A DNA stretch of 64,000 bases from a virus, in IMG/VR virus record IMGVR_UViG_3300046007_009543, positions 1 through 64,000 of that record; one strand, given 5' to 3'. Of this stretch, positions 1 to 62,141 are shown one piece after another. The notes under the pieces were generated by a model. The model was not told the DNA's origin. It ran no database searches and saw only the letters and a program-made list of their open reading frames with translations. The translations under genes were made by a program, and so were the position numbers. Every line of letters starts with the position of its first letter. Within the stretch, counting starts at the first letter, position 1.

Positions 1-602
1 GATTTATCAGCATCTGTTGTTGCTGTGTTTTCTTCTCCTGTTGATTGTCTTTCTGATGGGAATAAGGCATCCATAATCTGTTCAAAATCATCCCACCTCC
101 AATTGTTAGGATCAAAATATAAATTATTATCTAATAAACGTTTAGGGATAAAATTAATAACTTCTTCTTTTGAAAATAATTTATTTCCCTCATTATCTTC
201 AATACCATTAGTTATACCTTGTTTTAATTTTCCTCTTTTATTCATAAAACGAGCAGTATAACTTTGAGCTGTTTCTTTATCAATGTTTTCTTTTGATACA
301 AACTTTGCTACTGCTGCTTTTTTAATTTGCTCTGGGTTTTCTGGTATAGATTTAAGTAATCTAACTATATCAGCATATGAATATTGAGTAATATCTAAGT
401 ATTTCTTACTTTGCTTTAATTCATCAGGTAATACAAGTATTGGTAATCTACTAGATAGTGAGTCCTTTTTTTGGTCAAAAGTATTAATTAACTTTAATGC
501 TAAATCAGGAGTAACATTAGAATCTTCACCTATCCAACGGTCCGTAACTTTTTTTATTATTGCATCACTATATTCTTTTAATATTGTTGTAAATCTAATC
601 AT
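1..602 (-). CDS. Putative virion/internal protein, 3' end outside window
   Basis: The reading frame opens with ATG at 602 and runs off the left edge without a stop, giving at least 200 residues. I do not recognise the family. It starts MIRFTTILKE, a ten-residue segment ending in L-K-E, like the other capsid-targeting-type N-termini in this window and T4's MKTYQEFIAE. The rest is charged and mostly helical in appearance, with a Trp/Asp/Phe-rich stretch (NWRWDDFEQIMDALFP) near residue 170. The AT-rich promoter-like element lies 7 bases upstream. It probably encodes a packaged or structural protein; the function is unknown. Confidence 0.75.
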   Translation of the reverse strand, partial: MIRFTTILKEYSDAIIKKVTDRWIGEDSNVTPDLALKLINTFDQKKDSLSSRLPILVLPDELKQSKKYLDITQYSYADIVRLLKSIPENPEQIKKAAVAKFVSKENIDKETAQSYTARFMNKRGKLKQGITNGIEDNEGNKLFSKEEVINFIPKRLLDNNLYFDPNNWRWDDFEQIMDALFPSERQSTGEENTATTDADK

Positions 603-609
603 AATATGG

Positions 610-620
610 TTATAAATATT
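610..620 (-). promoter_or_regulatory. AATATTTATAA element before the gene at 602
   Basis: The coding strand reads TTATAATATTTATAA and ends 7 bases before the ATG. It is one of the recurrent late-promoter-like elements. It lies in the short spacer after the stop of the 627-1268 gene. Confidence 0.55.
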
Positions 621-626
621 ATAAGA

Positions 627-1268
627 TTATTGATAATACTTAGTGTAATCTTCTTTTATGTAAAGATTGAATTTAGGTAGTTTTAGGTTTTTTATAGCTA
701 ATTCTACCATATTTTTATTTACTCTAGCTACTTGTTGTTCATCTCCAGTTAATTGCCATGTTATATTAAATGGTAAATATAATTGCCACAATATTTGAGG
801 ATCTTTTGCTATTAATTTATCGTATTGATCTTTATTTATTTCAATATATAATATTTCGTTTGTTTTTTTACAAAAAAATCTTCTAAACTCTCCGTTTTGA
901 TAATCTTGTTGTGTTGGTTGTTGTGGATTATAATAAGGAGTGTAAGTTATTTGTTGTTGTGGTTTTAGATTATTATAAATAGAATTACTTTTAGGGTCTT
1001 GGTTTTCATTATTGTAAACTAATCCATCATAGTTGTCAGCTAATTGAATAAATGATTTTCCTGTTAATTCTGTTTCAGCTGTAGCTTCCCAAAAATCTTG
1101 GGTAATTGGAAAAAGTTCTAAATTAGGAAGATCATTAGGGGTTTTACCTGTAAAGTATTTTCCTTTACTTGTTTTAAAATAATATCCAGTATAACTTTCT
1201 CCATTAATGAAAAATTCATTTCCATTTGTATATAAATTAGGGGTGATTTGTGATAATGGATAATACAT
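627..1268 (-). CDS. Hypothetical baseplate-region protein
   Basis: 213 residues, rich in Tyr, Asn, Gln and Pro, with a central PQQ-type low-complexity stretch. No signal peptide or membrane segment is visible. The start is 2 bases after the stop of the large hub-like gene, so the two are surely co-transcribed. The N-terminus contains NGESYTGYYFKTSKGKYFTG, which looks like a small beta-rich attachment module. Position directly after the hub and gp53-like genes suggests a baseplate or tail-tip component. I do not recognise a family. Confidence 0.7.
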   Translation of the reverse strand: MYYPLSQITPNLYTNGNEFFINGESYTGYYFKTSKGKYFTGKTPNDLPNLELFPITQDFWEATAETELTGKSFIQLADNYDGLVYNNENQDPKSNSIYNNLKPQQQITYTPYYNPQQPTQQDYQNGEFRRFFCKKTNEILYIEINKDQYDKLIAKDPQILWQLYLPFNITWQLTGDEQQVARVNKNMVELAIKNLKLPKFNLYIKEDYTKYYQ

Positions 1269-1270
1269 AA

Positions 1271-4327: not shown

Positions 4328-4330
4328 ACA

Positions 4331-14215: not shown

Positions 14216-15013
14216 TTATTGTCCGTAAGATATATAATACCATCCTGGGACTGGTGTTGTTTTGTACATAAATTGAAACCCATTGCGATTATCTGTTGCT
14301 GGATTTAACGTTAAATCATCTAATGTATCACTTCCTCCTAAAGGAATATTTAAATTGTTATATCCAAAAATAGCTACACCTGAAGCAGTAATACTAATTT
14401 GTGAATAATCTAATGAAGTTGATTGTACATTACTTACAGCAAAATTAATTATTTGTCCATCTTGTGATGATGGTAAAAATAACAATCCTACAGATCCAGT
14501 TCCTATTTGATTTAAAAATATAAATGATTTATTTCCTCCAACCACATTATAAGGATTAATTGGTGGATTTGTACCACTACTAATATCAACATATGAAGGA
14601 GCAAATTGGAATGGAAAACCACTTAAAAAAGATGCTGTTTGTGCTAAAGATGAAGTAGCACAAAATGAAGCAGTACCTTGAAAATTTGTTACTGTTAATG
14701 TTTCTGTAACCGGATTAAAAGAAGGACCTGTTCCACTCCATTTTAACGGTGTAGGAGTTGAAGATGTTGAGTTAAAAAAAGCTATATTATATTCTCTATC
14801 AGTTAATGGAATCGTTGTGTTTGGTTCTACTTGTAATGTTTGAATTGAACGGTTAAAAGTTCCACTACCTGTTGTTCCTACTAAAGTAAAAGAACCTGAG
14901 ATGGTGATATCATATGCTTCCGTTCCTGTTAAAGCGTCTATACTTTGAGTTATTTGAGCTGCATTTATTATCTGCCCGTCTACTATACCTGTTGTTGAAA
15001 GATTTAAAGCCAT
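14216..15013 (-). CDS. Tail fibre / adhesin-like protein
   Basis: 265 residues. It opens with MALNLSTTGIVDGQIINAAQ, a start shared by many phage fibre proteins in which the first ~50 residues attach to the tail. The rest is Ser/Thr/Gly-rich and beta-strand-like, ending GFQFMYKTTPVPGWYYISYG, similar to the 'image a parameter, show the result' tails of fibre tips. It is the first of a run of adhesin genes continuing to 26.0 kb. Specific receptor unknown. Confidence 0.65.
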   Translation of the reverse strand: MALNLSTTGIVDGQIINAAQITQSIDALTGTEAYDITISGSFTLVGTTGSGTFNRSIQTLQVEPNTTIPLTDREYNIAFFNSTSSTPTPLKWSGTGPSFNPVTETLTVTNFQGTASFCATSSLAQTASFLSGFPFQFAPSYVDISSGTNPPINPYNVVGGNKSFIFLNQIGTGSVGLLFLPSSQDGQIINFAVSNVQSTSLDYSQISITASGVAIFGYNNLNIPLGGSDTLDDLTLNPATDNRNGFQFMYKTTPVPGWYYISYGQ

Positions 15014-35747: not shown

Positions 35748-36356
35748 TTAAAATATTGGACAAGAACCATTAGCACATAAGATTTCGGTTAATAATAAAT
35801 TCACCTTATTATATGGGTTTATAATATTATTTTCCTTACCTTCTCTTACTAAATTCATATATGAGCCCGGGTTTGAAGGTGTTGATACGAAATCCCAACA
35901 TAATAGTTCGAAATCATCTTGTACTTCTAAAGTACCTTCATTCATTTCTTTTAAACTACCCATTCCACGAGATGATACACCCACCATAACTCCGTTTTCA
36001 ATAAGAGCTTTTAATATGTTACCTGATGTTGTTGGTAATATTTCTATTTTACCTATTACTTTATCGTTGTCCCATCTAATTTCTCTAATAATATGAGATA
36101 CGTTTTTTAGATTAATAATTGTAGATTCTGGGTGGTCTAACTCGCCTGTTGCTCTATTTTCTTTAACAACATCCATGTATTTATTAATTTCTCTTTCCCA
36201 TAAATCTTTAGAATAGTATCTACCATTACCATTTTTTACTTCGGCAGTAGCTAAAATACCTTCAACTAAAGGATTACCAGAACGGGCTTTCATTCCTTCA
36301 GTTAATTGTATCGGAGATACATTAAACGGTATAGTTTCAATTAATACTTGTTTCAT
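35748..36356 (-). CDS. Prohead maturation protease, gp21-like
   Basis: 202 residues, close to T4 gp21 (212). Key blocks: NGRYYSKDLWEREI at about 44-57, GELDHPES near 76-83 with the catalytic-type His, VIGKIEILPTTSGNILKALI near 105-124 and GVMVGVSSRGMGSL with the catalytic-type Ser at about 131. The family is the T4 prohead protease (S77-type), which cuts after (I/L)-x-E. The N-terminus holds LIE7 and LTE20, plausible self-cleavage sites. Start overlaps by 4 bases with nothing; the previous gene stops 3 bases upstream. Confidence 0.88.
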   Translation of the reverse strand: MKQVLIETIPFNVSPIQLTEGMKARSGNPLVEGILATAEVKNGNGRYYSKDLWEREINKYMDVVKENRATGELDHPESTIINLKNVSHIIREIRWDNDKVIGKIEILPTTSGNILKALIENGVMVGVSSRGMGSLKEMNEGTLEVQDDFELLCWDFVSTPSNPGSYMNLVREGKENNIINPYNKVNLLLTEILCANGSCPIF

Positions 36357-36359: not shown

Positions 36360-37583
36360 TTATCCGTTTTTAGCTTTTTGATATATAGAATTGATTTTAT
36401 CCCAATCATCATGACTTGCATAAATTGTTTTTTCTGTGCGATCATCAAATTGAATATCATATGATTTATCTCCATTTTGTGGACTAATTCTTCTAACTAC
36501 TTTTTTATCAACAAATGTATATTTGTTAGGGGGATTTTCGTTTTCGTTTTCAGTTATTTTTTCATTGGTTGGGCTCCAAACTACTTTTCCTGTTTCAGGA
36601 TCAACCATACTACCATCATCCATTAAATCATAATCTTCAGGATTTAAACCACCATAGTCTTCATCTTTATTTTCATCAACTATGGTTTTTTTACCACCTA
36701 ATTTTGATAATTTTTTCTCACAAGTCATTTTGTATTTTTCAAGTACTTTAATGTCTTTTTTAAGTTCATTAATTTTTTTAGGATCCATCATATCAGTTAA
36801 CTCATCAGATTCAGATAATGATACTTTTTGAGTTAATTCATTAATTGCTTCATCCAATGATGCTATTTTAGATTCTAAAGCTAATACTTCGTTTTGTTTT
36901 TCTAAATCTTTAATACGAGTTTGAACGTTTGATTTTTTAGCTTCATTTAAAGATTCTTTAACAACTTTAGCTTTAGGCATATCACCATATCCTGATGATT
37001 TATATTTGCCTTTGGGTGCTATTGCATCTCCACCACCAACTACATCTTTTGTATATCCAATTTCTTTAACACCAAATGATGCTTCAGTATGATAATAATT
37101 GATGTCTTTAACCATGTTTTTTAATACAATAGCTTTTAATTCATCAACTGTTTTATCAGCGTTTTTAGGATCTTTCATTTCAGTATAGTATCCCATTAAA
37201 AATGATTGTCCATAAACATTGTCTATGTTTTTATCATCTTTATTATCAAATTGATGATCTAAAGCATCTTGAACTTGTTTATCAATTTTTTCAAATTCGT
37301 TTTGATCACCATATTCTTTAGTGTTTTTAACACCTACTGCTTCTTTTAAATTAGTATCAAATATTTTAAACCAATCTGGTTTATTTGGATTTGAAGTGAT
37401 TACTCCTCCTATAGCGGTTTCACTTAAAATACTTTTTGATTTTAAAATATGAACTGTAGTATTATAATCATTAACTGGTGTAATGAATTCTGGGAATAAA
37501 TTTCTTGCTTGTTTAAGAAAGTGATCTTTATTTCCTTTACCTTCTCTAATAAGAGTATATTGTTGTTGTAATGTTTTTTCCAT
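36360..37583 (-). CDS. Head-region protein with predicted coiled coil, possible core protein
   Basis: 407 residues. MEKTLQQQYTLIREGKGNKD gives a capsid-targeting-type start (L-I-R-E at 11-14). About 215-300 is a long charged helix (TRIKDLEKQNEVLALESKIA) typical of coiled coil. A later segment (GGLNPEDYDLMDDGSMVDPE) is acidic, and the tail has a small beta domain (VVRRISPQNGDKSYDIQFDD). Location immediately before the protease suggests a prohead core or internal component. A promoter-like element lies 4 bases before the ATG. Confidence 0.65.
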   Translation of the reverse strand: MEKTLQQQYTLIREGKGNKDHFLKQARNLFPEFITPVNDYNTTVHILKSKSILSETAIGGVITSNPNKPDWFKIFDTNLKEAVGVKNTKEYGDQNEFEKIDKQVQDALDHQFDNKDDKNIDNVYGQSFLMGYYTEMKDPKNADKTVDELKAIVLKNMVKDINYYHTEASFGVKEIGYTKDVVGGGDAIAPKGKYKSSGYGDMPKAKVVKESLNEAKKSNVQTRIKDLEKQNEVLALESKIASLDEAINELTQKVSLSESDELTDMMDPKKINELKKDIKVLEKYKMTCEKKLSKLGGKKTIVDENKDEDYGGLNPEDYDLMDDGSMVDPETGKVVWSPTNEKITENENENPPNKYTFVDKKVVRRISPQNGDKSYDIQFDDRTEKTIYASHDDWDKINSIYQKAKNG

Positions 37584-37941: not shown

Positions 37942-38502
37942 TTAATTTTTAAATAGTTCTAGTAAATCATTTAGATATTCGTTTGCAATATCTGTTCCAT
38001 ATAGAACGGTAAATGAATTTGGATCTTGTCTGTAAAAATCCATAGTTTTGTGTTTTGCTTGTTGTAATAAAGGAATTAATTCATTTAGTTTTGTTTCTAA
38101 TTCATCAAATCCTAAAATACGAGATGTAATAAATTTTTTATTATCTGGATTTGTTATATTTAATCCTGTAATAAATTCTTCAACATTAGTATTTGCTTCC
38201 CACAATGCTTTTATTTCAATACCTTTAGCTGCTTTATTTAGAGCAGGACGATTAACTAATTTATATTTAAATTTTTTAACATATACATTATCTTTAACAC
38301 CTTCAGGACCTGCTTTTGGACCAGGACCTACTGTAGCTCCAGGACCTTCTGTTACTTTTTTAAATCCTACTTGTGTATATGCTCCGTAAGTTGATTTTTT
38401 TTTAGAAGGCCCACTATGATTTTCTCCAGTGCCTCCAGATGTAAATCCAGAATCAGATGAAATAGTTGATTCTTCTTTTATTTTATATTTGTACTTGAAC
38501 AT
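37942..38502 (-). CDS. Head protein with capsid-like mature N-terminus
   Basis: 186 residues. MFKYKYKIKE is a ten-residue capsid-targeting-type segment ending in I-K-E. The next residues ESTISSDSGFTSGGTGENHS closely resemble the major capsid protein right after its predicted cut (TNTVASNSGFTSGTQGENWA). Residues ~35-80 are Gly/Pro-rich and basic, 95-186 helical. I infer a protein cleaved and packaged or built into the shell at maturation. The 20-base overlap with the next gene (38483-39352) indicates coupling. Confidence 0.65.
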   Translation of the reverse strand: MFKYKYKIKEESTISSDSGFTSGGTGENHSGPSKKKSTYGAYTQVGFKKVTEGPGATVGPGPKAGPEGVKDNVYVKKFKYKLVNRPALNKAAKGIEIKALWEANTNVEEFITGLNITNPDNKKFITSRILGFDELETKLNELIPLLQQAKHKTMDFYRQDPNSFTVLYGTDIANEYLNDLLELFKN

Positions 38503-43491: not shown

Positions 43492-43728
43492 TTATTCTCC
43501 TCTTAATTTTTTGATTATTTTAGACTTATCTTCTTCTAATGGTGTTACACTAGCAATGTTTGGGTTTTTAGATTTAAAATCAGTCATATCTTTTGTATTT
43601 GAAAAAGACGCTACTGTTTTCTTACCTGTTTTACCTGTAATTTCAGCACCAATAGCCTCATTTACGTCTTCAGATAATATTTCTGAAATATATTTTTTAA
43701 TTTCTAGTTTTAGGTCAGATTTTTTCAT
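43492..43728 (-). CDS. Small internal-type protein with capsid-targeting-like start
   Basis: 78 residues from the ATG at 43728. The ATG two codons earlier lies inside the AATATTTATGG element, so MKKSDLKLEIKKYISEILSE is preferred. This start is the long form of the capsid-targeting-type segments ending L-S-E at residue 20. The rest is small and charged. Stop is 1 base before the membrane protein's start. Possibly packaged and trimmed by the protease. Confidence 0.6.
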   Translation of the reverse strand: MKKSDLKLEIKKYISEILSEDVNEAIGAEITGKTGKKTVASFSNTKDMTDFKSKNPNIASVTPLEEDKSKIIKKLRGE

Positions 43729-43730
43729 GA

Positions 43731-43741
43731 CCATAAATATT
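43731..43741 (-). promoter_or_regulatory. AATATTTATGG variant element before the gene at 43728
   Basis: Two bases separate it from the preferred ATG; its own internal ATG would create the alternative, less likely start. Confidence 0.4.
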
Positions 43742-46726: not shown

Positions 46727-47536
46727 TTATTGGAGATTATCAAAATATTTTTTAGTATATACTGGAGATATTCTTTTTATTGTTGTTAATTTTCCTCCTT
46801 TAAGTACTGGTTTTGAGTTTTTAAAATCTACATCTACCCAATCTAATTTTCCTCTAGCATCTCCCATTCCCGCTTTTCCATTTGATGTATCTACTACTAC
46901 TCCTTCTCCATAAATTTTATGATTAAAACTAGTATCTTTTCTATAAGCCATATTAACTTTGTATTCTACTGAGTCTTTTGACGGTGTTTTATTTACTTGT
47001 TGACTTTTTCCATATAATTTATCAAGATCTATAATATAATCATAATTTGATGATTCTATAATTTTAACATTAGCATTACGAATTTCTTGTTCTATTTCAA
47101 GATTATGTGCTATTCTATGTTCTAATTCAGTATTACTAATATCACTACTTAAAATTAAGGTAATAAGTTCATCTTTATTTACTACAGCATAATATAAATC
47201 TCCGTATTTTTTTCTTTCTTTATTTTTTTCTTGATAATCTACATACATAACAATAGGATATTTTTTACCATTACTAATTAATATTGGTTTAAATACTCTA
47301 TATCCAACATAATATTTAAAGGACGATACTATATTTATTTTTTCTAGATTATTCAATCTATCAAGTATTTCTTTTTTTAAAATACTTATTAATTTAATGT
47401 TAGTTTCTTTGACATCATAACCACCATAAGCTTCATCAGGGATTTTTATTCTAGATATATTTGTTCGTTGAAATTTTCTTTCAGTGTAATGCTTACGCTG
47501 TCCTAATTCCTTTAAAATTTCAACTAAACTAATCAT
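46727..47536 (-). CDS. Hypothetical protein with capsid-targeting-like start
   Basis: 269 residues. MISLVEILKE is a ten-residue segment ending L-K-E. The body is basic, with KYYVGYRVFKPILISNGKKY and ending TIKRISPVYTKKYFDNLQ; a tail region DSVEYKVNMAYRKDTSFNHK, GEGVVVDTSNGKAGMGDARG and KLDWVDVDF looks like a small SH3-type barrel. Follows the 572-residue gene by 4 bases, the last gene of the internal-protein cluster. Confidence 0.6.
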   Translation of the reverse strand: MISLVEILKELGQRKHYTERKFQRTNISRIKIPDEAYGGYDVKETNIKLISILKKEILDRLNNLEKINIVSSFKYYVGYRVFKPILISNGKKYPIVMYVDYQEKNKERKKYGDLYYAVVNKDELITLILSSDISNTELEHRIAHNLEIEQEIRNANVKIIESSNYDYIIDLDKLYGKSQQVNKTPSKDSVEYKVNMAYRKDTSFNHKIYGEGVVVDTSNGKAGMGDARGKLDWVDVDFKNSKPVLKGGKLTTIKRISPVYTKKYFDNLQ

Positions 47537-47540: not shown

Positions 47541-49259
47541 TTATATTAACTTATTAATCCAAGTTTTTAATTTTTCATGAAATTCAAAAGCGTCATCATC
47601 ATTCATCTCACGAGTACGTTTTCTTATTAATTCAAGTATTTCATCAAATAGTTCTTTTGCTTTACCTTCAACGATAGTATTTTCTGTTACTGAAGATGTT
47701 ACTGTATATATATTTTTTCCTATTTTTAATTTAGTAAGTGTATTAACATTAATTGTTCTATATGCTTTTTCTGGATTTTCTTTATATTGCATATCATAAA
47801 CAGGAATTAAACCTTTAGATTCAGCGTCATAAGCTAATGTTCCTCCTTTTAAATATTTTTTTACACCTAAACGAGCATTCATTACTCTTTCAGTACCATC
47901 CTTTTTATTAAATGTTGCTGTGAAAATTTTACCGTTTGTATCTTTTATTAAACGTTTAGCTTCTTCAGCACTAATTTCACCTGGTGGGGTTGATGGGGTT
48001 GGAGCCGGTTCATTAGATCCTTCAAGTTCATTATTTTCATTTTCATCTAGACCTTCAAATTCATCATTTTTATCTAAGAAAAATATGTCTTTAATTTTAC
48101 CATCAATACTAGATAATATTAATTTAATATCACCACCGGATGGGGTTTTTGATGATACTCTAACTTTATTTCCGTTTTTAAATTTACCCAAATCAGCAGA
48201 TAATGTAAAAATATCACCTACAGCAATGTTTTTTCCTTTTATTTCATCTATTTGTCCTTCATCTAATCCACTTAAACCAGTATCATCTTTTTTAAGATCT
48301 TTTTCAATATCTTTCATTTCACCCAATGCCCATCTTTTTTGTTCAGGTGTTAATTGATCATTAACAGCATTTTCTACAAATGGAAAAAATTCATCATCTC
48401 CTAGTTTATATAGCGATGCAAAAAATAATTCACGTATTCTATTGTCATCTAAGTTACTCTCATTATATAACTTTGTTATCGCGTCATATATGAATTTTCC
48501 GAATCGAAAATCGTTAGGCTCATTTGATACTTTATCTACAGCACCAACAATAGCTTTATTTTTTTCTTTATCAGTTCCAAATCCTTCAGTTCCTACTATT
48601 TCATACAATCCTTTTACAATTTCATGTACTAACATTGGAAAACAAAGTGCACGTGCTTTAATAACAAATTGCTCATTTTCTTCATCATATTCAACTTCAC
48701 TTTCACCACCTTGCATTTTTTGACCTTGTGCTAAAGCAGCTAACATCATAGCAATAGCATTTTCATCATCATATATACCAAATACTAATTTTAATATTTC
48801 ATTATATCTATCTACTAAAGTATCATCCATCATATCAAGATATTCTCTAAATAAATAAAAAGCAAATGCTCCTCTAATTGATGCACCTTGAGTAATACCA
48901 TTAATAATACGACGTCTTGCTTTTTCGGCTTCTGCTGGAATTTCTAGTGAAGGTTCATCATCTGATGGTTCTCCACTACCTATATCTCCTCCTATTTTAG
49001 CATCTATTTTAATATTAGCATAATCAATAATTGGATAAGCTTGAGTTACCATTTCTATTGCTATTCCTTCTAGTAAATCATGATATCCTTTTTCTGCTGC
49101 TATTATGTCATTTAATACTTCTTTAGATCTTATAAGGGTTTGCATTAATTCCTTGTTTCCAAGCATTTGTCTTAATGATTCACCTGATTTGCCTTTTAAG
49201 GCTGCCATTGTTTCAGGACGAAAAATATCTTCGTATTCTGCTTCTAGTAAATTAATCAT
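47541..49259 (-). CDS. Large helical phage protein, possibly internal
   Basis: 572 residues. Predicted helical domain ~1-330 (MINLLEAEYEDIFRPETMAA; KALCFPMLVHEIVKGLYEIV), acidic linker about 400-430, then a small beta domain repeated in form (SAEEAKRLIKDTNGKIFTAT; KKYLKGGTLAYDAESKGLIP). Start overlaps the upstream gene by 1 base (TAATG). No known catalytic residues. Position in the cluster of capsid-targeted genes suggests a packaged protein; its own N-terminus (L-L-E at 4-6) is a weak cut-site candidate. Confidence 0.55.
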   Translation of the reverse strand: MINLLEAEYEDIFRPETMAALKGKSGESLRQMLGNKELMQTLIRSKEVLNDIIAAEKGYHDLLEGIAIEMVTQAYPIIDYANIKIDAKIGGDIGSGEPSDDEPSLEIPAEAEKARRRIINGITQGASIRGAFAFYLFREYLDMMDDTLVDRYNEILKLVFGIYDDENAIAMMLAALAQGQKMQGGESEVEYDEENEQFVIKARALCFPMLVHEIVKGLYEIVGTEGFGTDKEKNKAIVGAVDKVSNEPNDFRFGKFIYDAITKLYNESNLDDNRIRELFFASLYKLGDDEFFPFVENAVNDQLTPEQKRWALGEMKDIEKDLKKDDTGLSGLDEGQIDEIKGKNIAVGDIFTLSADLGKFKNGNKVRVSSKTPSGGDIKLILSSIDGKIKDIFFLDKNDEFEGLDENENNELEGSNEPAPTPSTPPGEISAEEAKRLIKDTNGKIFTATFNKKDGTERVMNARLGVKKYLKGGTLAYDAESKGLIPVYDMQYKENPEKAYRTINVNTLTKLKIGKNIYTVTSSVTENTIVEGKAKELFDEILELIRKRTREMNDDDAFEFHEKLKTWINKLI

Positions 49260-49705
49260 TATTGTTTTGATTTTTCTCTTAATTTTTTAAGTACATTTGA
49301 ATTAGCTGGGACATTCCATATTCCTTTATTAATGGCTGCTTTTGCTTGTTGTGGAGTCATTGCCTCTATTTCTTTATCAGTATATAAAGGTTTTGCTTTT
49401 GAATCTGATTTTTTGGAATCATTATCATCACCCAAAGTTAAAAGCTCATCCATTTGTTTACTTTTAAATCTTTTTGTAATTTTAGATATAATATCTGCTT
49501 CTTTAAGTGTAGCTTTAGCTTTAGGAGCTGGTTTAACATTAGGATTACCTAATTTTCTACGTTTTTCCTCTTTACCTGGTTTAGTTCCCGGTTCAGCTAC
49601 TTCTCTACCAGGGGTTTCACGTGGTTTAGCAGGAGCAGGTTGATTTTCACTCAACACACTTTTGATTTCTTCTCTAATTATTTGTCTTAAATCTTTAATT
49701 TTCAT
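49259..49705 (-). CDS. Basic internal-type protein with capsid-targeting-like start
   Basis: 148 residues. MKIKDLRQIIREEIKSVLSE is the longest clear targeting-type segment, ending L-S-E at residue 20, with I-R-E at 10-12. A Pro/Ala/Lys-rich linker (KPGKEEKRRKLGNPNVKPAP) and a basic C-terminal part follow, like small DNA-interacting internal proteins of T4. Start 1 base after the 889-residue gene stop. I infer a DNA-bound head protein. Confidence 0.65.
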   Translation of the reverse strand: MKIKDLRQIIREEIKSVLSENQPAPAKPRETPGREVAEPGTKPGKEEKRRKLGNPNVKPAPKAKATLKEADIISKITKRFKSKQMDELLTLGDDNDSKKSDSKAKPLYTDKEIEAMTPQQAKAAINKGIWNVPANSNVLKKLREKSKQ

Positions 49706-52381: not shown

Positions 52382-52708
52382 TTATACTGTTGTTGGAGTT
52401 GATGTAAATTTGGCTGTGTATATAGATGGTATTCTTTTGATACCTGCTAATATTTTTGAATAAGATTTTCCATCAAATGGTTCAAATGGAGATGGATCAA
52501 TTTTTAAGCTAAGATCAACAACGTGTCTTATACCGTGTGTTTCATCATCAGCATCTACTATATCTACAATAGTAACACCAGGAATAGCTCTAATATCCGA
52601 TAATATTTCTTGCATGGGTCTTGCATCACTGTTAACAACAATTCTACAATATACTAAATATATGTTAGGATTTGTTGATTCACGAATGATGTCTATAAAC
52701 TTGATCAT
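52382..52708 (-). CDS. Small internal-type protein with capsid-targeting-like start
   Basis: 108 residues. MIKFIDIIRE then STNPN: a ten-residue segment ending I-R-E, closely analogous to T4 internal proteins' MKTYQEFIAE. The rest is a compact alpha/beta body (IYLVYCRIVVNSDARPMQEI, LSDIRAIPGVTIVDIVDADD), which resembles an ACT-like or ferredoxin-like fold. Promoter-like element 2 bases upstream. Confidence 0.65.
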   Translation of the reverse strand: MIKFIDIIRESTNPNIYLVYCRIVVNSDARPMQEILSDIRAIPGVTIVDIVDADDETHGIRHVVDLSLKIDPSPFEPFDGKSYSKILAGIKRIPSIYTAKFTSTPTTV

Positions 52709-52746: not shown

Positions 52747-53364
52747 TTATACAGTTTCATTTATATCGTAATAATAAGAATCTGTGTCTTCAGTTATCCA
52801 TTTATCTGCTACTGATTCTACTGAGAGTAAATATTTATCTACTTTTATGTCTTTAACATTTAATGGAAATTCAGATGTAACCCAATTTGAATCTCTCCAA
52901 TAAATTCTATTATTAGGCATACATAAAAGATAACCACCATCTGCTACTAAAACATGACCTGCTTTATAATCAGTAGGTTCGTCAGAATATGGATTATCGT
53001 ACCAATCTACAGTAAATAAATAAGTAGCCCAAACTTTAGTTTTATTTCTTAAAATAACCTGGCATCTTTTTTCTAGTAAAAATGAATATTTTGTAACAGA
53101 TACATTTTCACTAAAACAATCCCATAATTGTTTATAATAGAAAGGAATATCTTTAGTTGGTTCTTTTATAAAAAGTTCTGAAATGGGGACTCTACTTCTT
53201 ACCATTCCAAAATCTGTCATAATATGAAAGGTTAGTATTTTACCTGTAATAGATTGTATTCCAAAAACATAGGCATTATCAAAAATGTTATTATCTTTAG
53301 AATTATGAGTATAATGAGAGCGTCTTATTAAACATTTAAAATAAGGAATATTTTCATTTAACAT
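52747..53364 (-). CDS. Conserved hypothetical phage protein
   Basis: 205 residues. Segments GIQSITGKILTFHIMTDFGM, VRSRVPISELF, YLFTVDWYDNPYSDEPTDYK and AGHVLVADGGYLLCMPNNRI form a beta-rich protein also recalled from T4-like phages of marine bacteria. No catalytic motif. Start overlaps the stop of the 53.7 kb gene by 1 base. Role unknown; probably not targeted, as the N-terminus differs from its neighbours. Confidence 0.55.
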   Translation of the reverse strand: MLNENIPYFKCLIRRSHYTHNSKDNNIFDNAYVFGIQSITGKILTFHIMTDFGMVRSRVPISELFIKEPTKDIPFYYKQLWDCFSENVSVTKYSFLLEKRCQVILRNKTKVWATYLFTVDWYDNPYSDEPTDYKAGHVLVADGGYLLCMPNNRIYWRDSNWVTSEFPLNVKDIKVDKYLLSVESVADKWITEDTDSYYYDINETV

Positions 53365-53690
53365 TATTTTTCTCTTATTAGTAATTCACCTAATACCTCT
53401 AAACGACCAACTTCTCTTTGAAATTCAATTGGTGTCATGTTTAAAGATATTTTTTTAAGTGTTTGTTCAAATTCTTTTGTAGCAACTTCTTTATCAAATT
53501 TACCGTTAGTTGCTTTTTTATAATAAGGAGCTTTAACTTTAAAGTGGTGCCAAGTTAATAATGCTAAACCACCTTTTTCTTCAGCATTTGAAGCTATTTT
53601 AGCAGCACCTTCACCACGTTTTTTAGCAAATTCCTCAAAAGTTTCTTTAAGTTTTTTAGCTTCTTTTAATATATCTAATAATTTTATCAT
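53364..53690 (-). CDS. Small basic internal-type protein with capsid-targeting-like start
   Basis: 108 residues from the ATG at 53690, whose ATG overlaps the previous stop (ATGA). A TTG start 5 codons earlier is less likely. MIKLLDILKE then AKKLKE is nearly identical to the first ten residues of the upstream gene (MIKLLDILNE). The rest is Lys/Glu-rich and helical (EEFAKKRGEGAAKIASNAEE), with a Trp-His-rich middle. Likely packaged in the head. Confidence 0.65.
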   Translation of the reverse strand: MIKLLDILKEAKKLKETFEEFAKKRGEGAAKIASNAEEKGGLALLTWHHFKVKAPYYKKATNGKFDKEVATKEFEQTLKKISLNMTPIEFQREVGRLEVLGELLIREK

Positions 53691-54709
53691 TTTATTTTTA
53701 CACAATTTGGATATTTTTTACCAAACATTGTTTTCATACCTTTTTGAGTATATCCTTTCCAACATTTTTCAGTAAGTATATCTTCTTCTAACATTTCATT
53801 TAACCATTTAGCATTTAAACCAATATAAACATTAGGTTGAATAAAACCTTCAGGATACATTTTAAATGCTTGTGTAGTTCTATGCCAGCCTTCTCCTAAT
53901 TCATATTTACCATCTTTAGTTTTAAATATAATAATAGGTTCTTTAGATATTCCTTGACTTTTTAATAATTTTTGTTGTGTATTGTGTCTTTCAATATCCT
54001 TACCTACATCTTGTCTAATTTCCCCTCCAATTCTTGATTTTAATTCTTGTTGAGTTTTATTACCAAAAATATCCATTGTTATAGGAAAGTTTGTCTTAGT
54101 CTCCCATTTTAAATCTTTAAGTTGACTATCAATCCAATCCTGAATACCTTCGGCTGTGTTGATATTATCATCTTTTTTAATCATTTTATAAATCCAATCC
54201 TTTATAACATAATCAGGGAAATTTGGAAGTTGTTGTTTTAAATAATCTAAAAGACCTTGTCTTAACTCATTTATATTTTTATTTTTAACAGGAGCATAAC
54301 CAGAACCATATGGTGCTGCTTTACCTGATTGTGGGTCTGCTGTTTCTTTTACTTTATTTAAACGTTGTGTTTTAGCTTTAGATGATTCTTTACGTTTTTC
54401 AATATAATCTAAAGCACGTTTTAATCTAGATTTTACTTCAGGATCTTTTGCTTTACCATATGCTGCTCTTACTCGTTGATGAATTAAATTAATAATTTGT
54501 GATTGACGAGCATGTGGTTTAGATTTAAATGAATCTTTATTTAATGTATCAACTATATCTTCTTTAGTTTTAAATTTAATAGATACAGTATCTTTTGGAT
54601 TTTCATCTGTGTATAAACGACGACCTGATCCTTTAGGTTTTTTACCTGTTCCTTTTTTAGGATCATTTTCAGATAAAACCTCATTTAATATATCTAATAG
54701 TTTTATCAT
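53687..54709 (-). CDS. Internal-type protein with ParB-like segment
   Basis: 340 residues. MIKLLDILNE start plus V-L-S-E at 11-14. Basic N-terminal half with KARQSQIINLIHQRVRAAYG-type helices, then DPQSGKAAPYGSGYA near residue 129, also present in the next gene. About 250-300: PIIIFKTKDGKYELGEGWHR, a ParB/Srx-like core with G-x-x-R-x-x-A features. C-terminus EKCWKGYTQKGMKTMFGKKY, then PNCVKIK, a Cys-flanked tail frequent in marine phage proteins. Possibly a DNA-binding head protein. Confidence 0.6.
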   Translation of the reverse strand: MIKLLDILNEVLSENDPKKGTGKKPKGSGRRLYTDENPKDTVSIKFKTKEDIVDTLNKDSFKSKPHARQSQIINLIHQRVRAAYGKAKDPEVKSRLKRALDYIEKRKESSKAKTQRLNKVKETADPQSGKAAPYGSGYAPVKNKNINELRQGLLDYLKQQLPNFPDYVIKDWIYKMIKKDDNINTAEGIQDWIDSQLKDLKWETKTNFPITMDIFGNKTQQELKSRIGGEIRQDVGKDIERHNTQQKLLKSQGISKEPIIIFKTKDGKYELGEGWHRTTQAFKMYPEGFIQPNVYIGLNAKWLNEMLEEDILTEKCWKGYTQKGMKTMFGKKYPNCVKIK

Positions 54710-55179
54710 TTTGTTTTACCCCATTTAGTACCTTTACCTTTTGCTTTACATCCTGCTGGAGTTGGTCTGCAAGCTGGATATGCTCGTTTTTCGCCTTTTT
54801 GTCTTCCACAAGGTTTGTAACCAGTTATTTTACCATCTTTTCTAATTGGAGCATTACAATCAACCCACCCACCTGTTTTACCAGGAGCACCTTTACGAGA
54901 AAACCAAGTTCTAAGTGTTTCTTTTACTTTTTCAAGAATTAATTCTTCTTCAACCTTAGCATATCCTGATCCATATGGTGCTGCTTTACCTGATTGAGGA
55001 TCGTCTGTTTCTTTTATATCTTTCCAAATTTTTCCAGCGCGACATCTTACAACAGCTCCTGATTTGTAAGCTGATGGTTTATCAAACTTACGATCAGCAA
55101 TACGAAGACATCTGTCTCGTTTTACTTTTTTTTCAGAAAGTATTTCTCTAATAAGTTGTTGTAATTCAGATGTATTCAT
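54706..55179 (-). CDS. Cys-rich internal-type protein
   Basis: 157 residues from the ATG at 55179; an upstream in-frame ATG at 55263 overlaps the previous gene by about 80 bases and is rejected. MNTSELQQLIREILSE is a targeting-type start ending L-S-E. Then RDRCLRIADRKFDKPSAYKS, GAVVRCRAGKIW, DPQSGKAAPYGSGYA, and a Cys-rich tail (GGWVDCNAPI, YKPCGRQKGEKRAYPACRPT, AGCKAKGKGTKWG), a zinc- or metal-binding-looking module seen in phage proteins (DUF5872-like, uncertain). Confidence 0.6.
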   Translation of the reverse strand: MNTSELQQLIREILSEKKVKRDRCLRIADRKFDKPSAYKSGAVVRCRAGKIWKDIKETDDPQSGKAAPYGSGYAKVEEELILEKVKETLRTWFSRKGAPGKTGGWVDCNAPIRKDGKITGYKPCGRQKGEKRAYPACRPTPAGCKAKGKGTKWGKTK

Positions 55180-55180: not shown

Positions 55181-55825
55181 TTACCATTTTTTACAAGACC
55201 AGTAACGAGCTTTCCATCTTGGACCTGGGTTTTTGCAATTGTGTCTTGCTCTAAAGGCTGCACGTCTTTTAGGATTTTTATCCTTAATTACCATTCTTTT
55301 ACCTTTAGCTGATTTACCACCAAATCCAAAGTTAACTTTTACTACATTACCTTTATCATTTTTAACATATACTTTGAATTTCTTAACATCACCCTGCATT
55401 GGTTTACCTAAAGTTACTTTACGACCTTGGTATTCTGCCTCGGTTAATATATCATTATCAGGCATTGGTAAGTCTAAAGGTACTTTTTTACCTTCATATA
55501 TTCCATATTCACCCAAGTTAGTTTCAGTAATTTTTTCTTTATCAATACCTTCAACATTTAAAGCACCACGAGAATATAAGTATCTTGCTTCAGCCCATAA
55601 ATTTAAATATTCTTTTGAACCGTATGGTAAAGTTGTTTCAAATAGCGGTGTTTTAGCGTCTATATGGTATTGCATATTTTCAGTCATAACAATACGCGCT
55701 TTTAAACTTTCATTTAATATAGGTGCATCAAAACACTTAGCAGTACCCTTACAACCACAACCACAATCTGGTTTTTTAGAGGTCTCTGATAGCACTTTTC
55801 TTATTAATTCTTTTAAATTATGCAT
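55181..55825 (-). CDS. Internal-type protein with RHNC/YWSCKxW C-terminal module
   Basis: 214 residues. MHNLKELIRKVLSE ends L-S-E at residue 14, then a Cys-cluster (KKPDCGCGCKGTAKC). The C-terminus (KRRAAFRARHNCKNPGPRWK then ARYWSCKKW) is a module frequent in marine phage virion proteins, with conserved Cys pair. Middle segment has MTENMQYHIDAKTPLFETTL. Promoter-like element 2 bases upstream. The stop lies 1 base before the next gene. Confidence 0.65.
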   Translation of the reverse strand: MHNLKELIRKVLSETSKKPDCGCGCKGTAKCFDAPILNESLKARIVMTENMQYHIDAKTPLFETTLPYGSKEYLNLWAEARYLYSRGALNVEGIDKEKITETNLGEYGIYEGKKVPLDLPMPDNDILTEAEYQGRKVTLGKPMQGDVKKFKVYVKNDKGNVVKVNFGFGGKSAKGKRMVIKDKNPKRRAAFRARHNCKNPGPRWKARYWSCKKW

Positions 55826-56783: not shown

Positions 56784-57308
56784 TTATGCTGTTGGTGCTT
56801 CTTCAGGTGCTTCCTCTTCAGGTACTTCCTCTTCAGGTGTTTCTGTATCAGGCATAGAAAAATCTTCTGGATTTACTTCTGGGATTTCATCTTTGAAATT
56901 TCCAGTTGGATCTTCTTCTTCTTTAGGAGCACCGTATGATAATATTCTAGATATTGATTCGGCTGCTGATTCTTCTTCACTTAAATTTAATAAATAATAT
57001 TTTTTACCTTCAACTTTAGCTATCCAACTTCTTTCAGTATAAATTAAATAAAATGTTTCTTTATTTCCTAATATAATACGAAAAGTAGTAGGACGAGGTG
57101 CTACCCATTGAATATCAGTCATAAAAACCTCATACTGTTTAGTAAGTAAACTTACAATTACTTTTTTAAGATCAGGAAATTTACCTAAAACAGGAAATTT
57201 TAATGCATCAAGAGACACATCGTTTCCTTTATCTAAATCAACTGATTTAGGTATTAGAGCTTGTTTAGCTAATGTTTTTATTTTATCTCTTAATTCTGAC
57301 TTAGTCAT
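56784..57308 (-). CDS. Hypothetical protein with acidic C-terminal repeats
   Basis: 174 residues. Compact N-terminal region (GKFPDLKKVIVSLLTKQYEV; DIQWVAPRPTTFRIILGNKE) of alternating strands and helices. The last ~35 residues are Glu/Pro repeats (EEEVPEEEAPEEAP) coded by a short DNA repeat. The start overlaps the stop of the preceding gene by 1 base. No capsid-targeting motif; no family recognised. Confidence 0.55.
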   Translation of the reverse strand: MTKSELRDKIKTLAKQALIPKSVDLDKGNDVSLDALKFPVLGKFPDLKKVIVSLLTKQYEVFMTDIQWVAPRPTTFRIILGNKETFYLIYTERSWIAKVEGKKYYLLNLSEEESAAESISRILSYGAPKEEEDPTGNFKDEIPEVNPEDFSMPDTETPEEEVPEEEAPEEAPTA

Positions 57309-58381
57309 TATTTAATGTCTTCTGGTTTTTTAACACCTATTTTAGTAGATTTACCCCAAACAGCTGTTCTAGTTTTACCGCCTTTTTCTAATGTAACATC
57401 AACTTTTCCACCTGGAGTATATGCACCCGATGATACAGAAACTACTGTTTCTCCACTACCTATAACGTCTCCTTTTTTTAAATATTGAGCTTCTTTTGAA
57501 TTTGAAGGTGCTTTATAACTAGATTCTTTTAATTTTTTAGCAATAGTTTTTGCTAATCCTTTTGCGTTTTTAATAGCTTTATCTTTTACTCCTTTGTATT
57601 CTTCTTCAGGTGATTCTATTTTATTATCCCCATCATAATCTTTTTTTGCTTTTTTCTCGTAAAGTTCTTCAACTTCACCTTCTTCACCTGTTAAATAATC
57701 ACTAACAGATTGTAAATAATCTTGTGCTTTAGTTAATTTAGATTGTACCCAAGCATCTAATTGCTCATTGTTATCAATCATATTCATTAATTTAGAAGCA
57801 TTTGATTGAATTGATTTTAATTGTGAATCAGCCATATCAGACTCATCATCCGCTTGTTTCCAATCATCTTCATTTAATGATTCCATTTCACCAATAATAG
57901 TTTCATAGTCATCCATAGTTAATGTTTTATCTTCACTACTTAAACCGATTGCTTTTTTAGCAACATCGTGTAAATCAACATCAGTACTAGCATCTTCACG
58001 AGCATATTCTAACATACGAATAAATAAAGGAACATCCATAGTAATTTTATCTTCTGGATTTTCTTCTCTTTCTGAGATGTATTGTTTAGAGTTTATTGAC
58101 TCTGATTCAGCTGTTAATTGTTTTCTTACTAATTCTTTTATGTCTTGTTGTTTCATGTCTTCTATATATTTTTTAGCGTCTTTAATTGCTCTACCTACTA
58201 ATACTTTTTCAGCATCTTTACCATAACGTTTTACTAAATTCTTTTTATTTTTTAATAACGCATTGATATATTCTTGGCGTTTATTTAAAAATGTGTTTTT
58301 GTACTTATCATCAATAACAGGAGAGCCCTTATCTTCAGATAAGAACTCTCTAATTACTGTTTTAAGTTGGGTTTTGTTCAT
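57308..58381 (-). CDS. Internal-type protein with marine-phage head-associated domain
   Basis: 357 residues. MNKTQLKTVIREFLSE ends L-S-E at residue 16. A domain near 190-230 (ASKLMNMIDNNEQLDAWVQS, KLTKAQDYLQSVSDYLTGEE) resembles a module found repeatedly in head-associated proteins of marine T4-like phages. The C-terminal beta region has KKGDVIGSGETVVSVSSGAY then GKVDVTLEKGGKTRTAVW, and KKYDGDN-type linker is Lys-rich. Coupled to the Hc1-like gene by a TAATG overlap. Confidence 0.65.
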   Translation of the reverse strand: MNKTQLKTVIREFLSEDKGSPVIDDKYKNTFLNKRQEYINALLKNKKNLVKRYGKDAEKVLVGRAIKDAKKYIEDMKQQDIKELVRKQLTAESESINSKQYISEREENPEDKITMDVPLFIRMLEYAREDASTDVDLHDVAKKAIGLSSEDKTLTMDDYETIIGEMESLNEDDWKQADDESDMADSQLKSIQSNASKLMNMIDNNEQLDAWVQSKLTKAQDYLQSVSDYLTGEEGEVEELYEKKAKKDYDGDNKIESPEEEYKGVKDKAIKNAKGLAKTIAKKLKESSYKAPSNSKEAQYLKKGDVIGSGETVVSVSSGAYTPGGKVDVTLEKGGKTRTAVWGKSTKIGVKKPEDIK

Positions 58382-58583: not shown

Positions 58584-59300
58584 TTAACGAATTGGTTCTT
58601 TATTAGCAATGTGAGTACGAGTAAACATTGTAATTGTATTACCAATTTGTTGTGTTAATTTTTCATCTTGAATTTTTTCAGCTGCGGCTTGTGCTTGTGT
58701 TAAAGCATCTTGAACAGCTTTAATATTAGGATCTACAGCACTTGTATCAATATTGAAATTATCTGTAGGTTCTGCATTATCTCCACTAAAATTAATATCT
58801 AAATTTTCTTCACCTTCTGGTGTTTCTTCACCTAAATCAAGATTTATATCTTCTTCAGGAGTATCTTCTTTTTTCTTTTTTTTAGCTTCTCTAATTTTAA
58901 GAGCACTTAATGCATCTCTAGTTCCTTCAAAACCAGGTATATCATATGATAATTCTTCTTCATCATCCATCATTTCATCATCCATCATTTCATCATCATT
59001 AAAGAAGTCTTTGAAATCAAGTTTTTCATCATTTGGATTAATACCGTATTCTACTTCACGACCTGCTTTTTCATAATCTTCATCATCTGGTCCTTCTGTT
59101 ATTGCAGCACCATCTAACTCAGCAATAATCATTTCTTTGATTTTTTGCTTAAATTCTTCTTTGGTCATTTTTTGTTTTTCTTCGGCTTTACCTTCAGCTT
59201 TACCTTCTTCATATTCATAAGCACCAAAACCTTCTCTTAATATTGAGGCCTTGGTTAATTTATTTTCAGTTAAGAATTTTTTGTAATCAAATTTTTCCAT
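58584..59300 (-). CDS. Acidic internal-type protein with capsid-targeting-like start
   Basis: 238 residues. MEKFDYKKFLTE then NKLTKASILRE offers cuts after L-T-E and L-R-E. 'FDYKKFLTENKL' starts are frequent in marine phage virion proteins. The middle is highly acidic, with a repeated DDEMM run coded by a 15-base tandem repeat. The C-terminal helix (AVQDALTQAQAAAEKIQDEK) could be coiled coil. Promoter-like element 16 bases upstream. Confidence 0.65.
   Translation of the reverse strand: MEKFDYKKFLTENKLTKASILREGFGAYEYEEGKAEGKAEEKQKMTKEEFKQKIKEMIIAELDGAAITEGPDDEDYEKAGREVEYGINPNDEKLDFKDFFNDDEMMDDEMMDDEEELSYDIPGFEGTRDALSALKIREAKKKKKEDTPEEDINLDLGEETPEGEENLDINFSGDNAEPTDNFNIDTSAVDPNIKAVQDALTQAQAAAEKIQDEKLTQQIGNTITMFTRTHIANKEPIR
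58960..59005 (-). repeat. Short tandem repeat coding DDEMM
   Basis: The plus strand carries about three copies of 'catcatttcatcatc' (15 bases). It can slip and change the acidic tract length by five residues. Confidence 0.6.
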
Positions 59301-59316
59301 TATTTTGTGTGTTTTG

Positions 59317-59327: not shown

Positions 59328-59330
59328 ATA

Positions 59331-59942: not shown

Positions 59943-60505
59943 TTTTTCAAACTGTGTAAATATTTAAGTGCTTCTTCTTTATTTTTTAATAATTGTTGTT
60001 TACCAGAACCATCCCATTTTTCAACATCACCAGCCTCAGTTATAAATTGGTCTTTTTGATTTATTAACTCTTCAAACCAAACTTCAAAATCATTAGTCAT
60101 TCCATCAACATAATCATTTGTTATTTGTTTTTCGACTTCTTCTAATTTACCTTGTTTACGTAATTCAGCCTCAGCATTTACCTGACAATTAAAACAATGT
60201 CCATACATTATATACCACTGTTTGTCTAAATGGGGTTTTAATGCTTTAGTACAACAAGGACAAAATAAAGGTAAAATTATACCTTCTTTTGCTTTATCTA
60301 ATTTAGTAACATTTTGTTTAATTCCATTCTTAATAGTCCATGTACGACTATCTTCTTCCCACACATCTCCCTCACTATGGAATTCTTTTGCTTTTTCATA
60401 ACCTATCCCCATCGTGGTGCTATCCCCGTATTTACCTTGAACAAGGTTACGAAGACGTTCTACATCACGTTGCTTAAATTCTTTTTTTAAAACCGTATTT
60501 TTCAT
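59939..60505 (-). CDS. Zinc-ribbon-type phage protein
   Basis: 188 residues. Cys-pairs PLFCPCCTKAL (residues ~82-92) and GHCFNCQV (~109-116) form a zinc-ribbon-like site. Other parts: KNTVLKKEFKQRDVERLRNL at the start and an acidic C-terminal half ending EEALKYLHSLKK. Similar proteins are common in T4-like marine phages, with no established job. Overlaps the GAF-like gene by 4 bases. Confidence 0.6.
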   Translation of the reverse strand: MKNTVLKKEFKQRDVERLRNLVQGKYGDSTTMGIGYEKAKEFHSEGDVWEEDSRTWTIKNGIKQNVTKLDKAKEGIILPLFCPCCTKALKPHLDKQWYIMYGHCFNCQVNAEAELRKQGKLEEVEKQITNDYVDGMTNDFEVWFEELINQKDQFITEAGDVEKWDGSGKQQLLKNKEEALKYLHSLKK

Positions 60506-60511
60506 TATATT

Positions 60512-61045
60512 TTATTTATTTATAATGTTTTTGATTTCTTCTCTAATAAACTGGCGGATTTGTTTTATTTTTCTACCTTCTTCTATAGAACTACCACTTT
60601 CTTTTTTAATTAATTTATATTTAGTAATGCCAGCACTTTTCATAACAGTATCAATTATTCTTTTTATATTTTCTTTTGTTTCATTTGATTCTTTAGGAAA
60701 TATAATAGTATTACCTTCTACTTTATAATCTAATAAATTAGGTTTACTGGTTAGTGATTTGATAAAATCATCTACTGATTGTTTTGTTCTAAGAGGAAAT
60801 GGTTCTCCTCCTCTTGCTTTTAATGCTGTTTTCTTTTTTGAAGGATTTGATGGACCAAAATAATCTTCTATTGCTTTATTAGTATTTGGTTTTCTAATAT
60901 TTGATAAATATATTCCATAATTATCAATATTTTCTAAGGCATCTACGACTTTTTGAATATTTTCTGTTGTTGTTAAAATAAGATCTTGATCTAAGCGTAT
61001 TGATGATGATTGATTATCTTCGTCTTCTCTAATATTGTAATTCAT
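60512..61045 (-). CDS. Hypothetical protein with short targeting-type start
   Basis: 177 residues. MNYNIRE ends I-R-E at residue 7, the shortest candidate. It contains VVDALENIDNYGIYLSNIRK and a mixed alpha/beta core with phosphate-binding-like GNTIIFPKES. C-terminal IKQIRQFIREEIKNIINK looks like the same amphipathic segment placed at the C-terminus. No known family. Not preceded by the promoter-like element. Confidence 0.5.
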   Translation of the reverse strand: MNYNIREDEDNQSSSIRLDQDLILTTTENIQKVVDALENIDNYGIYLSNIRKPNTNKAIEDYFGPSNPSKKKTALKARGGEPFPLRTKQSVDDFIKSLTSKPNLLDYKVEGNTIIFPKESNETKENIKRIIDTVMKSAGITKYKLIKKESGSSIEEGRKIKQIRQFIREEIKNIINK

Positions 61046-61052
61046 ATTGTTA

Positions 61053-62141
61053 TTAATTTTTTATACTATCTTCCCAATTACGTAACATCATATTACCTTT
61101 TTCATATGCTTCTTTTTCTAATTCAGGTAAATCACCATCTTCGTTTGTATTAGTAGTTTGAATATTATTTAATCTACCTTCTAAATTTTGAATGTGGTGA
61201 ATCATTTCATGAGAAAATGAACGTAAAATATCTTTTGGATGTCTGTTTAAAGTAAATAAAGTAATTGATTTTTCTGATGGATTGTAATACGCTGTTTTAC
61301 CTAAAATATTATTTGCATTTTCATTATCATTGCTTATAAATTTTATTTTAGGTAGAGGTTTAATATTTAATCCGTTATCGAGCATGTATTTCGATAAACG
61401 TACGATTCCTTCTTTAAGATCCAAAGTTTTAGTTTGATTTTCTTTTACAGGAAATACGTTAGTTGGTATTAAATATAATGCTTTAGGTGTTGATGAAAAT
61501 TTATATTTTTTATGAAATCGATCTAAATTTTTAACAATATATTCTTTATATAATTTACCTCTTTTAGAATTAGCATCATTGCCAATACCATCATCTGCTT
61601 TGGGGTGAAATTGAATTTCTTTAATAATTACATCGTCTATATTATCATCTACTGTGTTTACAAAATTAGATATAATATCTAACATAGTAGCCATTATTCT
61701 ATATTGTTCTTGATAGTTAGTTATTTCCTCTCCTCCACTTTTTAAACCAAAACCAAAAGCCATATACATTTGGTGTTTACCATTAGTTGTTGTAGGTGGT
61801 ATAGTTTTAATAAAAACATTTACAACATAATCAGCATTATCTGATTTAAAGGCGTATTGATATGTACCATCACCATATTCGGGTGCCATTTCTTTTAATT
61901 TATCAACATAAGTTTCTATGCTATAATTACCTAAAGTACGCCACTCAAATGGTTTAACATTTCCTTCTCCTAATTCATTTAAAGTATCAGAAGTATTATC
62001 ATACCCACACTTATGGCAAAGATATAAATCATCCCCACCATCTTCTTTAGACCACTTCCAATTACAATTATTACATATTATATCAGTAGCTGTAATAAGT
62101 TCGGTAAGGTGTTCAACTAATGAGGAAACTAGGATATTCAT
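61053..62141 (-). CDS. Zinc-ribbon metalloprotease, possibly packaged
   Basis: 362 residues. MNILVSSLVEHLTE ends L-T-E at residue 14 (targeting-type). Zinc ribbon CNNCNWKW ... CHKCGYDN at ~23-48. Central domain (FEWRTLGNYSIETYVDKLKE). Catalytic FSHEMIHHIQ near 309-318 is an HExxH zincin site with further Glu in LPELEKEAYEKG downstream as possible third ligand. A virion-borne zinc protease would act on host proteins after injection. Promoter-like element 3 bases upstream. Confidence 0.75.
   Translation of the reverse strand: MNILVSSLVEHLTELITATDIICNNCNWKWSKEDGGDDLYLCHKCGYDNTSDTLNELGEGNVKPFEWRTLGNYSIETYVDKLKEMAPEYGDGTYQYAFKSDNADYVVNVFIKTIPPTTTNGKHQMYMAFGFGLKSGGEEITNYQEQYRIMATMLDIISNFVNTVDDNIDDVIIKEIQFHPKADDGIGNDANSKRGKLYKEYIVKNLDRFHKKYKFSSTPKALYLIPTNVFPVKENQTKTLDLKEGIVRLSKYMLDNGLNIKPLPKIKFISNDNENANNILGKTAYYNPSEKSITLFTLNRHPKDILRSFSHEMIHHIQNLEGRLNNIQTTNTNEDGDLPELEKEAYEKGNMMLRNWEDSIKN

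Follow-up and report, generated by a model that had tools for sequence, protein, structure and literature searches.

About a dozen proteins of a T4-like phage, otherwise unrelated, carry short N-terminal leaders that are very probably T4-like capsid-targeting sequences (CTS), by which cargo would be packed into the head, trimmed by a gp21-type protease and probably ejected with the DNA. The leaders, their excess over expectation, their conservation and interchangeability, and their fit to domain boundaries were computed directly. The steps that would connect them are inferred. Late in infection, a short amphipathic N-terminus would bind the prohead core and carry the protein inside, and the gp21-type protease would cut after [I/L]-x-E, leaving the mature protein free in the head. 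For this phage, core binding and cleavage are sequence-based predictions that we consider well supported; for packaging, the support is an analogy with other T4-like phages whose virions have been measured. Cargo with further [IL]xE at domain junctions would probably yield several packaged pieces. Once mature, the cargo would probably leave the head with the DNA and act ahead of phage gene expression, ejection or injection into the host and the function of the cargo being inferred from T4 (PMC9026906, PMC12373910).

The head module and the leader-bearing genes

The window (64 kb, the whole stretch of DNA analysed) is the first part of a source record of 94,716 bases with 30% GC. The phage is T4-like and its host is probably a marine or freshwater member of the Bacteroidota. 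Among isolates, Flavobacterium phage immuto is nearest (capsid protein identity 53%), and no close DNA relative of the record was found in the phage collection. A related record (G001, 171.7 kb) has the same genes, with protease and zinc-protease proteins identical to those of the window. Nearly all genes lie on the minus strand. The head module comprises a gp23-type capsid protein, scaffold, S77 protease, portal and terminase, and the gp21-like protease named in a preliminary description of this DNA is indeed encoded. Across the clade, conserved [IL]xE sites occur in the kinds of protein known as gp21 substrates, namely the capsid protein (LLE9, LLE36, LLE51, VTE60), scaffold (LKE9), protease (LTE20) and core proteins. 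The relevant head-module features are as follows, with a slash at each predicted cut.

35748–36356, minus strand: gp21-type prohead protease (S77; PF03420, E=4e-30), own site LTE20/G in 65 of 67
34321–35382, minus strand: scaffold-like core protein, N-terminus MTNRDLLKE/A kept in 53 of 57, many conserved LxE sites
32560–34293, minus strand: gp23-type major capsid protein, predicted propeptide with conserved QLLE9/S, TGLLE36/G, LLLE51/N and QLVTE60/T
38473–38502, minus strand: N-terminus MFKYKYKIKE/E of head-module protein 37942–38502, IKE10 in 57 of 57
37542–37583, minus strand: N-terminus MEKTLQQQYTLIRE/G of head-module protein 36360–37583, site kept in 32 of 36

The last two had been grouped with the accessory leader proteins. 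Their sites are conserved, but the form is different, and judged by sequence they are head-module proteins and not accessory cargo.

The leaders form at least four classes. Class A resembles MIKLLDILKE, and five genes have the T4 form (hydrophobic residues at 4, 7 and 8, E10). Class B resembles (K)xSELKxxIREx(I)LSE and is 12–22 residues long. Class C, FKRMQKLAGIITE, is prominent among relatives, with five genes within one stretch of G003, and class D is NFDLKKFLTENKLT. The motifs are placed at the N-terminus in 10/11 cases for class C and 6/6 for class D. Classes B and D are longer than ten residues and have the T4 CTS form only in part; the fit of B, C and D to the T4 CTS is looser than that of A. 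The putative leaders and related features of the window are:

573–602, minus strand: class A, MIRFTTILKE/Y, gene 3–602 (truncated here; 772 aa in G001)
47507–47536, minus strand: class A, MISLVEILKE/L, gene 46727–47536
52679–52708, minus strand: class A, MIKFIDIIRE/S, gene 52382–52708, upstream ATTTATAA box
53661–53690, minus strand: class A, MIKLLDILKE/A, gene 53364–53690 (family K)
54680–54709, minus strand: class A, MIKLLDILNE/V, gene 53687–54709, second site LSE at residue 14
43669–43734, minus strand: class B, MVMKKSDLKLEIKKYISEILSE/D, gene 43492–43734
49646–49705, minus strand: class B, MKIKDLRQIIREEIKSVLSE/N, gene 49259–49705
55132–55179, minus strand: class B, MNTSELQQLIREILSE/K, gene 54706–55179 (basic cargo, net +21)
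55784–55825, minus strand: class B, MHNLKELIRKVLSE/T, gene 55181–55825 (family D)
58334–58381, minus strand: class B, MNKTQLKTVIREFLSE/D, gene 57308–58381
59265–59300, minus strand: class D, MEKFDYKKFLTE/N, gene 58584–59300, upstream ATTTATAA box
62100–62141, minus strand: leader MNILVSSLVEHLTE/L, zinc-ribbon/zincin (HEMIHH) protein 61053–62141
63925–64000, minus strand: in-window part of family V gene 63925–64281, class B leader MKLTDLRKLILE just beyond the window
60515–60571, minus strand: class-B-like motif KIKQIRQFIREEIKNIINK at the C-terminus of 60512–61045

All N-termini listed in the preliminary description are present on the minus strand. The one at 61045 was dropped, as MNYNIREDED does not have the leader form, and the Hc1-like protein cannot be kept as tagged cargo, since Pfam Hc1 spans residues 5–55 of its 57 and the N-terminus lies within the domain. 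Not listed there were 63925–64281, a further leader gene at 80808–81152 (same record, outside the window), the head-core proteins' own sites and the internal cargo sites.

Almost no function was found for the window's own cargo with Pfam, PHROG or NCBIfam. Of 114 genes, 22 have a ATTTATAA box at most 45 bases upstream vs 1.8 expected, and none was found in the 84–94.7 kb block. Because the box is common to head and tail genes and several leader genes, it suggests that the leader genes are late genes, which is unproven.

To count the leaders we used a short pattern, M-x-x-phi-x-x-phi-phi-x-E at residues 1–10, derived solely from the T4 CTS and requiring a hydrophobic residue at positions 4, 7 and 8 and E at 10. 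Expected counts were those of the same motif at internal positions of the same proteins. The short pattern occurs in 5 of the 115 genes of the 94.7-kb record vs 0.22 expected (p=3e-6), and in 4 of 114 when similar N-termini are removed (p=7e-5). A looser motif, phi-x-x-phi-phi-x-E ending at residues 10–22, gave 20 vs 3.3 expected in the record (p=5e-10) and 60 vs 18.6 in nine clade records (p=2e-14), with the caveat that its form was settled after the data had been inspected. By both counts the N-terminal likeness noticed in the preliminary description is beyond chance. As a positive control, the short regex returned ipII, ipIII and gp24, plus 61.1, from the 243 genes of T4; these matches are known substrates, and ipI was missed with the gene calls of this analysis. 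A positional count of plain [ILVFM]xE was dropped as too weak to separate signal. Matches in the terminase, a baseplate protein and Hc1 were set aside as coincidence or other homology; that of the terminase N-terminus (MSQDLKAIIREEY) stems from terminase homology.

Predicted cut sites, exchange of leaders and internal junctions

Mutagenesis of the T4 CTS assigned targeting to residues 4 and 7 and processing to residues 8 and 10 (PMC9026906). Class A leaders occupy exactly these positions. The residue after the predicted cut (P1') is A, S, T, V or G in 15 of 24 non-redundant class A leaders vs 24% after internal motif copies (p=6.5e-5), and P1' residues played no part in finding the motif. The small residue is not universal, and leaders with Y, L, D, K or N at P1' also occur. 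Membership of the T4 type was tested by a roughly ten-residue N-terminus with hydrophobic residues at 4, 7 and 8 and E10 (met for five class A genes), an S77 (gp21) prohead protease in the same phage (met), a predicted [I/L]-x-E cut site followed by a small residue (met), and one leader type on unrelated bodies and separable from them (met).

Among relatives, orthologous bodies retain a leader as its sequence and class change. In family K (53364–53690) the leader is kept in 58 of 63 distinct N-termini, including class D replacements; three members have G for E10. In family V (63925–64281) all 50 distinct N-termini of relatives have a leader, of class A or B. The Zeta_toxin match of P-loop kinases begins at residue 11–13, directly past the leader (E down to 3e-16). 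Other leader-borne cargo of relatives includes a kinase-like protein, and HAD or nucleotidyltransferase domains fused to a zinc-protease module of the window's type. The relatives of 61053–62141 are fusions of 832–1220 aa with the same leader type before differing domains, and for this reason the zinc protease, proposed earlier as a tagged protein, was retained. A solved-structure search with the zinc protease gave no match, and one with a relative's cargo gave only a weak protein-kinase match.

Sites of the same kind are predicted inside cargo, as in the family D protein 55181–55825:

55439–55441, minus strand: putative internal gp21-type site ILTE129/A, before the basic C-terminal domain (phrog_7595)
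55679–55681, minus strand: putative second internal site VMTE49/N, before the xLKYH domain

The phrog_7595 domain is found fused to a wide range of partners. Of 93 distinct contexts, 84 have [ILMVF]xE directly before it, 6 have a start Met there and 3 have something else. Position P3 is nearly always L, I, V or M, and P2 and P4 can be almost any residue. The second junction reads [LMV][ST]E in 27/27 contexts. In the S77-negative siphophages Kolga and Aegir the domain is a free-standing ORF that starts at the junction residue (MAKYQGR). In HTVC008M and C48C1, T4-like phages with S77, LEE or LTE stands before the domain, and MKKFKQYIDE, the N-terminus of the C48C1 protein, comes close to the T4 CTS. 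S77 is present in 14 of the 19 contigs >80 kb that carry the xE-type phrog_7595 (D) domain. The five S77-negative contigs were rejected as counter-examples, as four also have no gp23 and one is cut at gp23. The junctions resemble cleavage sites, which suggests that cargo polyproteins may be split by the prohead protease.

These data bear on the possibility that leaders target without general cleavage, docking cargo in the core with many proteins left unprocessed and [IL]xE forming part of the docking helix. We consider this unlikely, but it survives better than the other alternatives. In T4, Asp at residue 10 stops processing and targeting is still possible (PMC9026906), and the family K members with G for E10 could be read in the same way; yet docking alone does not account for a near-invariant E beside a free P2, for the P1' bias or for the sites at junctions.

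Virion proteomes and control phages

The association between leader and virion was evaluated in S-CREM2, a T4-like cyanophage with 48% GC whose virion proteome was determined by mass spectrometry (PMC10665884, Table 3). A leader is present in 5 of 26 detected non-structural or hypothetical proteins vs 2 of 167 undetected ORFs (odds ratio 19.6, p=5e-4), and in 0/20 structural proteins outside the head core. The five are a SAM hydrolase (MKDFDSFLEE), an APH-like kinase (MKRFDAFLTE), a cytidylyltransferase (MKNFSSFLTE) and two unknowns. Some S-CREM2 virion proteins have no leader, so a leader is not required for presence in the virion, nor is it enough by itself. In S-SCSM1, an NMN adenylyltransferase (NMNAT) was detected in the virion (PMC9602691). 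Its N-terminus is MKSFLQFLKE/A, and in the 127 kb examined, a partial test, the two regex matches are this protein and a RecA-like protein. The cytidyltransferase of Caulobacter phage Cr30 has no leader. The association with virion presence is thus shown for another T4-like phage and not for this clade, for which the available sources contain no virion data.

Short amphipathic N-terminal helices can have many roles, and the available part of the literature attributes to the T4 gp23 N-terminus the directing of gp23 to GroEL (Snyder and Tarkowski 2005, via PMC10052503). We nonetheless find it improbable that the leaders here direct proteins to GroEL, a membrane, the tail or baseplate, or host RNA polymerase with no gp21 cleavage, given that the cleavage motif, the P1' bias and the reuse of the motif at internal junctions indicate a protease and that virion presence in S-CREM2 indicates packaging. 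Least credible of all is an effect of initiation or composition without targeting, in which AT-rich early codons (ATG ATT AAA ...) favour starts of the form M-I/K-K-hydrophobic: the genome is AT-rich, as are the class A starts, but the S77-negative phages crAss001 and Cellulophaga phi14:2 and phi19:1 (the latter two flavobacterial phages with 29–31% GC) show no excess of the motif (4 vs 5.9 expected), the S-CREM2 association holds despite that phage's GC content, and the terminal E, the small P1' and the domains starting right after the leader are left unexplained. A set of proteins packed in the head and trimmed there, as the preliminary description proposed, remains the best explanation of the protease, the statistics, the leader swapping, the P1' composition, the domain boundaries and the external virion proteome.

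Relation to known systems

T4 is where the CTS principle was established, and a wider occurrence among T4-like phages has already been suggested (PMC9026906). The leaders resemble the CTS of IPI–IPIII, processed by gp21, in length, in positions 4, 7, 8 and 10, in E at P1, in the S77 protease and in the use of a leader on unrelated bodies. This phage differs from T4 in having about a dozen predicted cargo proteins, compared with three IPs plus Alt, and it and its clade differ in having at least classes A–D and predicted cleavage sites at the junctions of cargo domains. The clade also has recognisable enzymes as putative cargo (zeta-type kinases, kinase-like, HAD, nucleotidyltransferase, zincins). 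In phiKZ and SPN3US, an S77-related protease likewise cuts many head and ejection proteins after a short x-x-E (PMC9026906, PMC10052503), although the propeptides are mostly long (111–254 residues) and the motif is S/A-x-E or A-x-E. Polyvalent proteins, encoded by both phages and conjugative elements (Iyer et al. 2017, PMC5512222), so far as the accessible text describes them, are multidomain like the fusions related to 61053–62141, with zincin-like peptidases and kinases, and are predicted to be packaged and delivered; processing is suggested to be by the zincin domain, and that portion of the text mentions neither an N-terminal leader nor prohead-protease sites at junctions.

A literature search with partial coverage did not turn up any account of Bacteroidota phages with leaders, any mention of classes B–D, or any report of prohead-protease sites separating one cargo domain from the next. 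The leader classes, the cargo and the polyprotein-like junctions therefore look new, the CTS principle being known from T4. We lean, if only slightly, towards a broader reading that takes in T4-like phages whose hosts are Bacteroidota and, in part, those of SAR11 and cyanobacteria: the prohead protease may be a general cargo processor, with interchangeable leaders loading enzymes and basic proteins and polyproteins split at [IL]xE, so that each virion would deliver a variable host-modifying set. The three internal proteins of T4 each block one GmrSD type IV restriction enzyme in particular (PMC12373910), which makes prime candidates of the cargo sets in the search for anti-defence and takeover factors. 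Interchangeable leaders and junction cleavage could also serve for loading chosen proteins into laboratory phage heads. If the tags act by drawing proteins into the head and are removed afterwards, the phage can bring ready-made enzymes to its next host, with ejection inferred from T4. The leader would then be a sequence rule for singling out, from the many uncharacterised proteins of abundant aquatic T4-like phages, those that travel in the head and so are the first to act on the host.

An upstream sequence box

The box ATATTTATAA lies 5' of 22 of the 114 genes, against 1.8 expected (sense strand of the record), and many late-type genes have one upstream. Examples are:

Just before the start at 602, sense strand of the record, ATATTTATAA box
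Just before the start at 15013, sense strand of the record, ATATTTATAA box
Just before the start at 55825, sense strand of the record, ATATTTATAA box

It is possibly the late promoter of the phage; its orientation is unlike that of TATAAATA in T4.

A resemblance between head proteins, and further leader motifs

In the 186-aa head protein encoded at 37942-38502, residues 11-23, directly after E10 (ESTISSDSGFTSGG), resemble residues 61-74 of the capsid protein (32560-34293), directly past the conserved VTE60 (TNTVASNSGFTSGT). The same likeness is clearer in relatives (SNIASNSFYTSGG versus SNQIASNSYFTSGG). The counterpart of gene 3-602 in the related record G001 (L096:14226-16544) encodes a 772-aa protein that looks like a fusion of two tagged ones: it begins with a class A leader, and residues 667-679 form a class C motif. 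In another sequence, five genes with a class C leader occupy a single 4.7-kb stretch (L107:10213-14926) and have little in common past the first 17-20 residues. The protein encoded at 60512-61045 carries a class-B-like leader helix at its C-terminal end (KIKQIRQFIREEIKNIINK), and targeting via the C-terminus is possible.

S-CREM2 and T4

The product of S-CREM2 ORF12 (OR473000 7704-10313), annotated as a Cas9 nuclease, was detected in the virion. Its leader-like RFASFMAE|A ends at residue 25, which suggests a misplaced start or a longer leader. T4 gene 61.1 (L136:18966-19130) encodes a 54-aa product whose N-terminus, MKTFKEFIKE, is a near-copy of the capsid-targeting sequence of the internal proteins; this product is possibly an additional T4 head protein.
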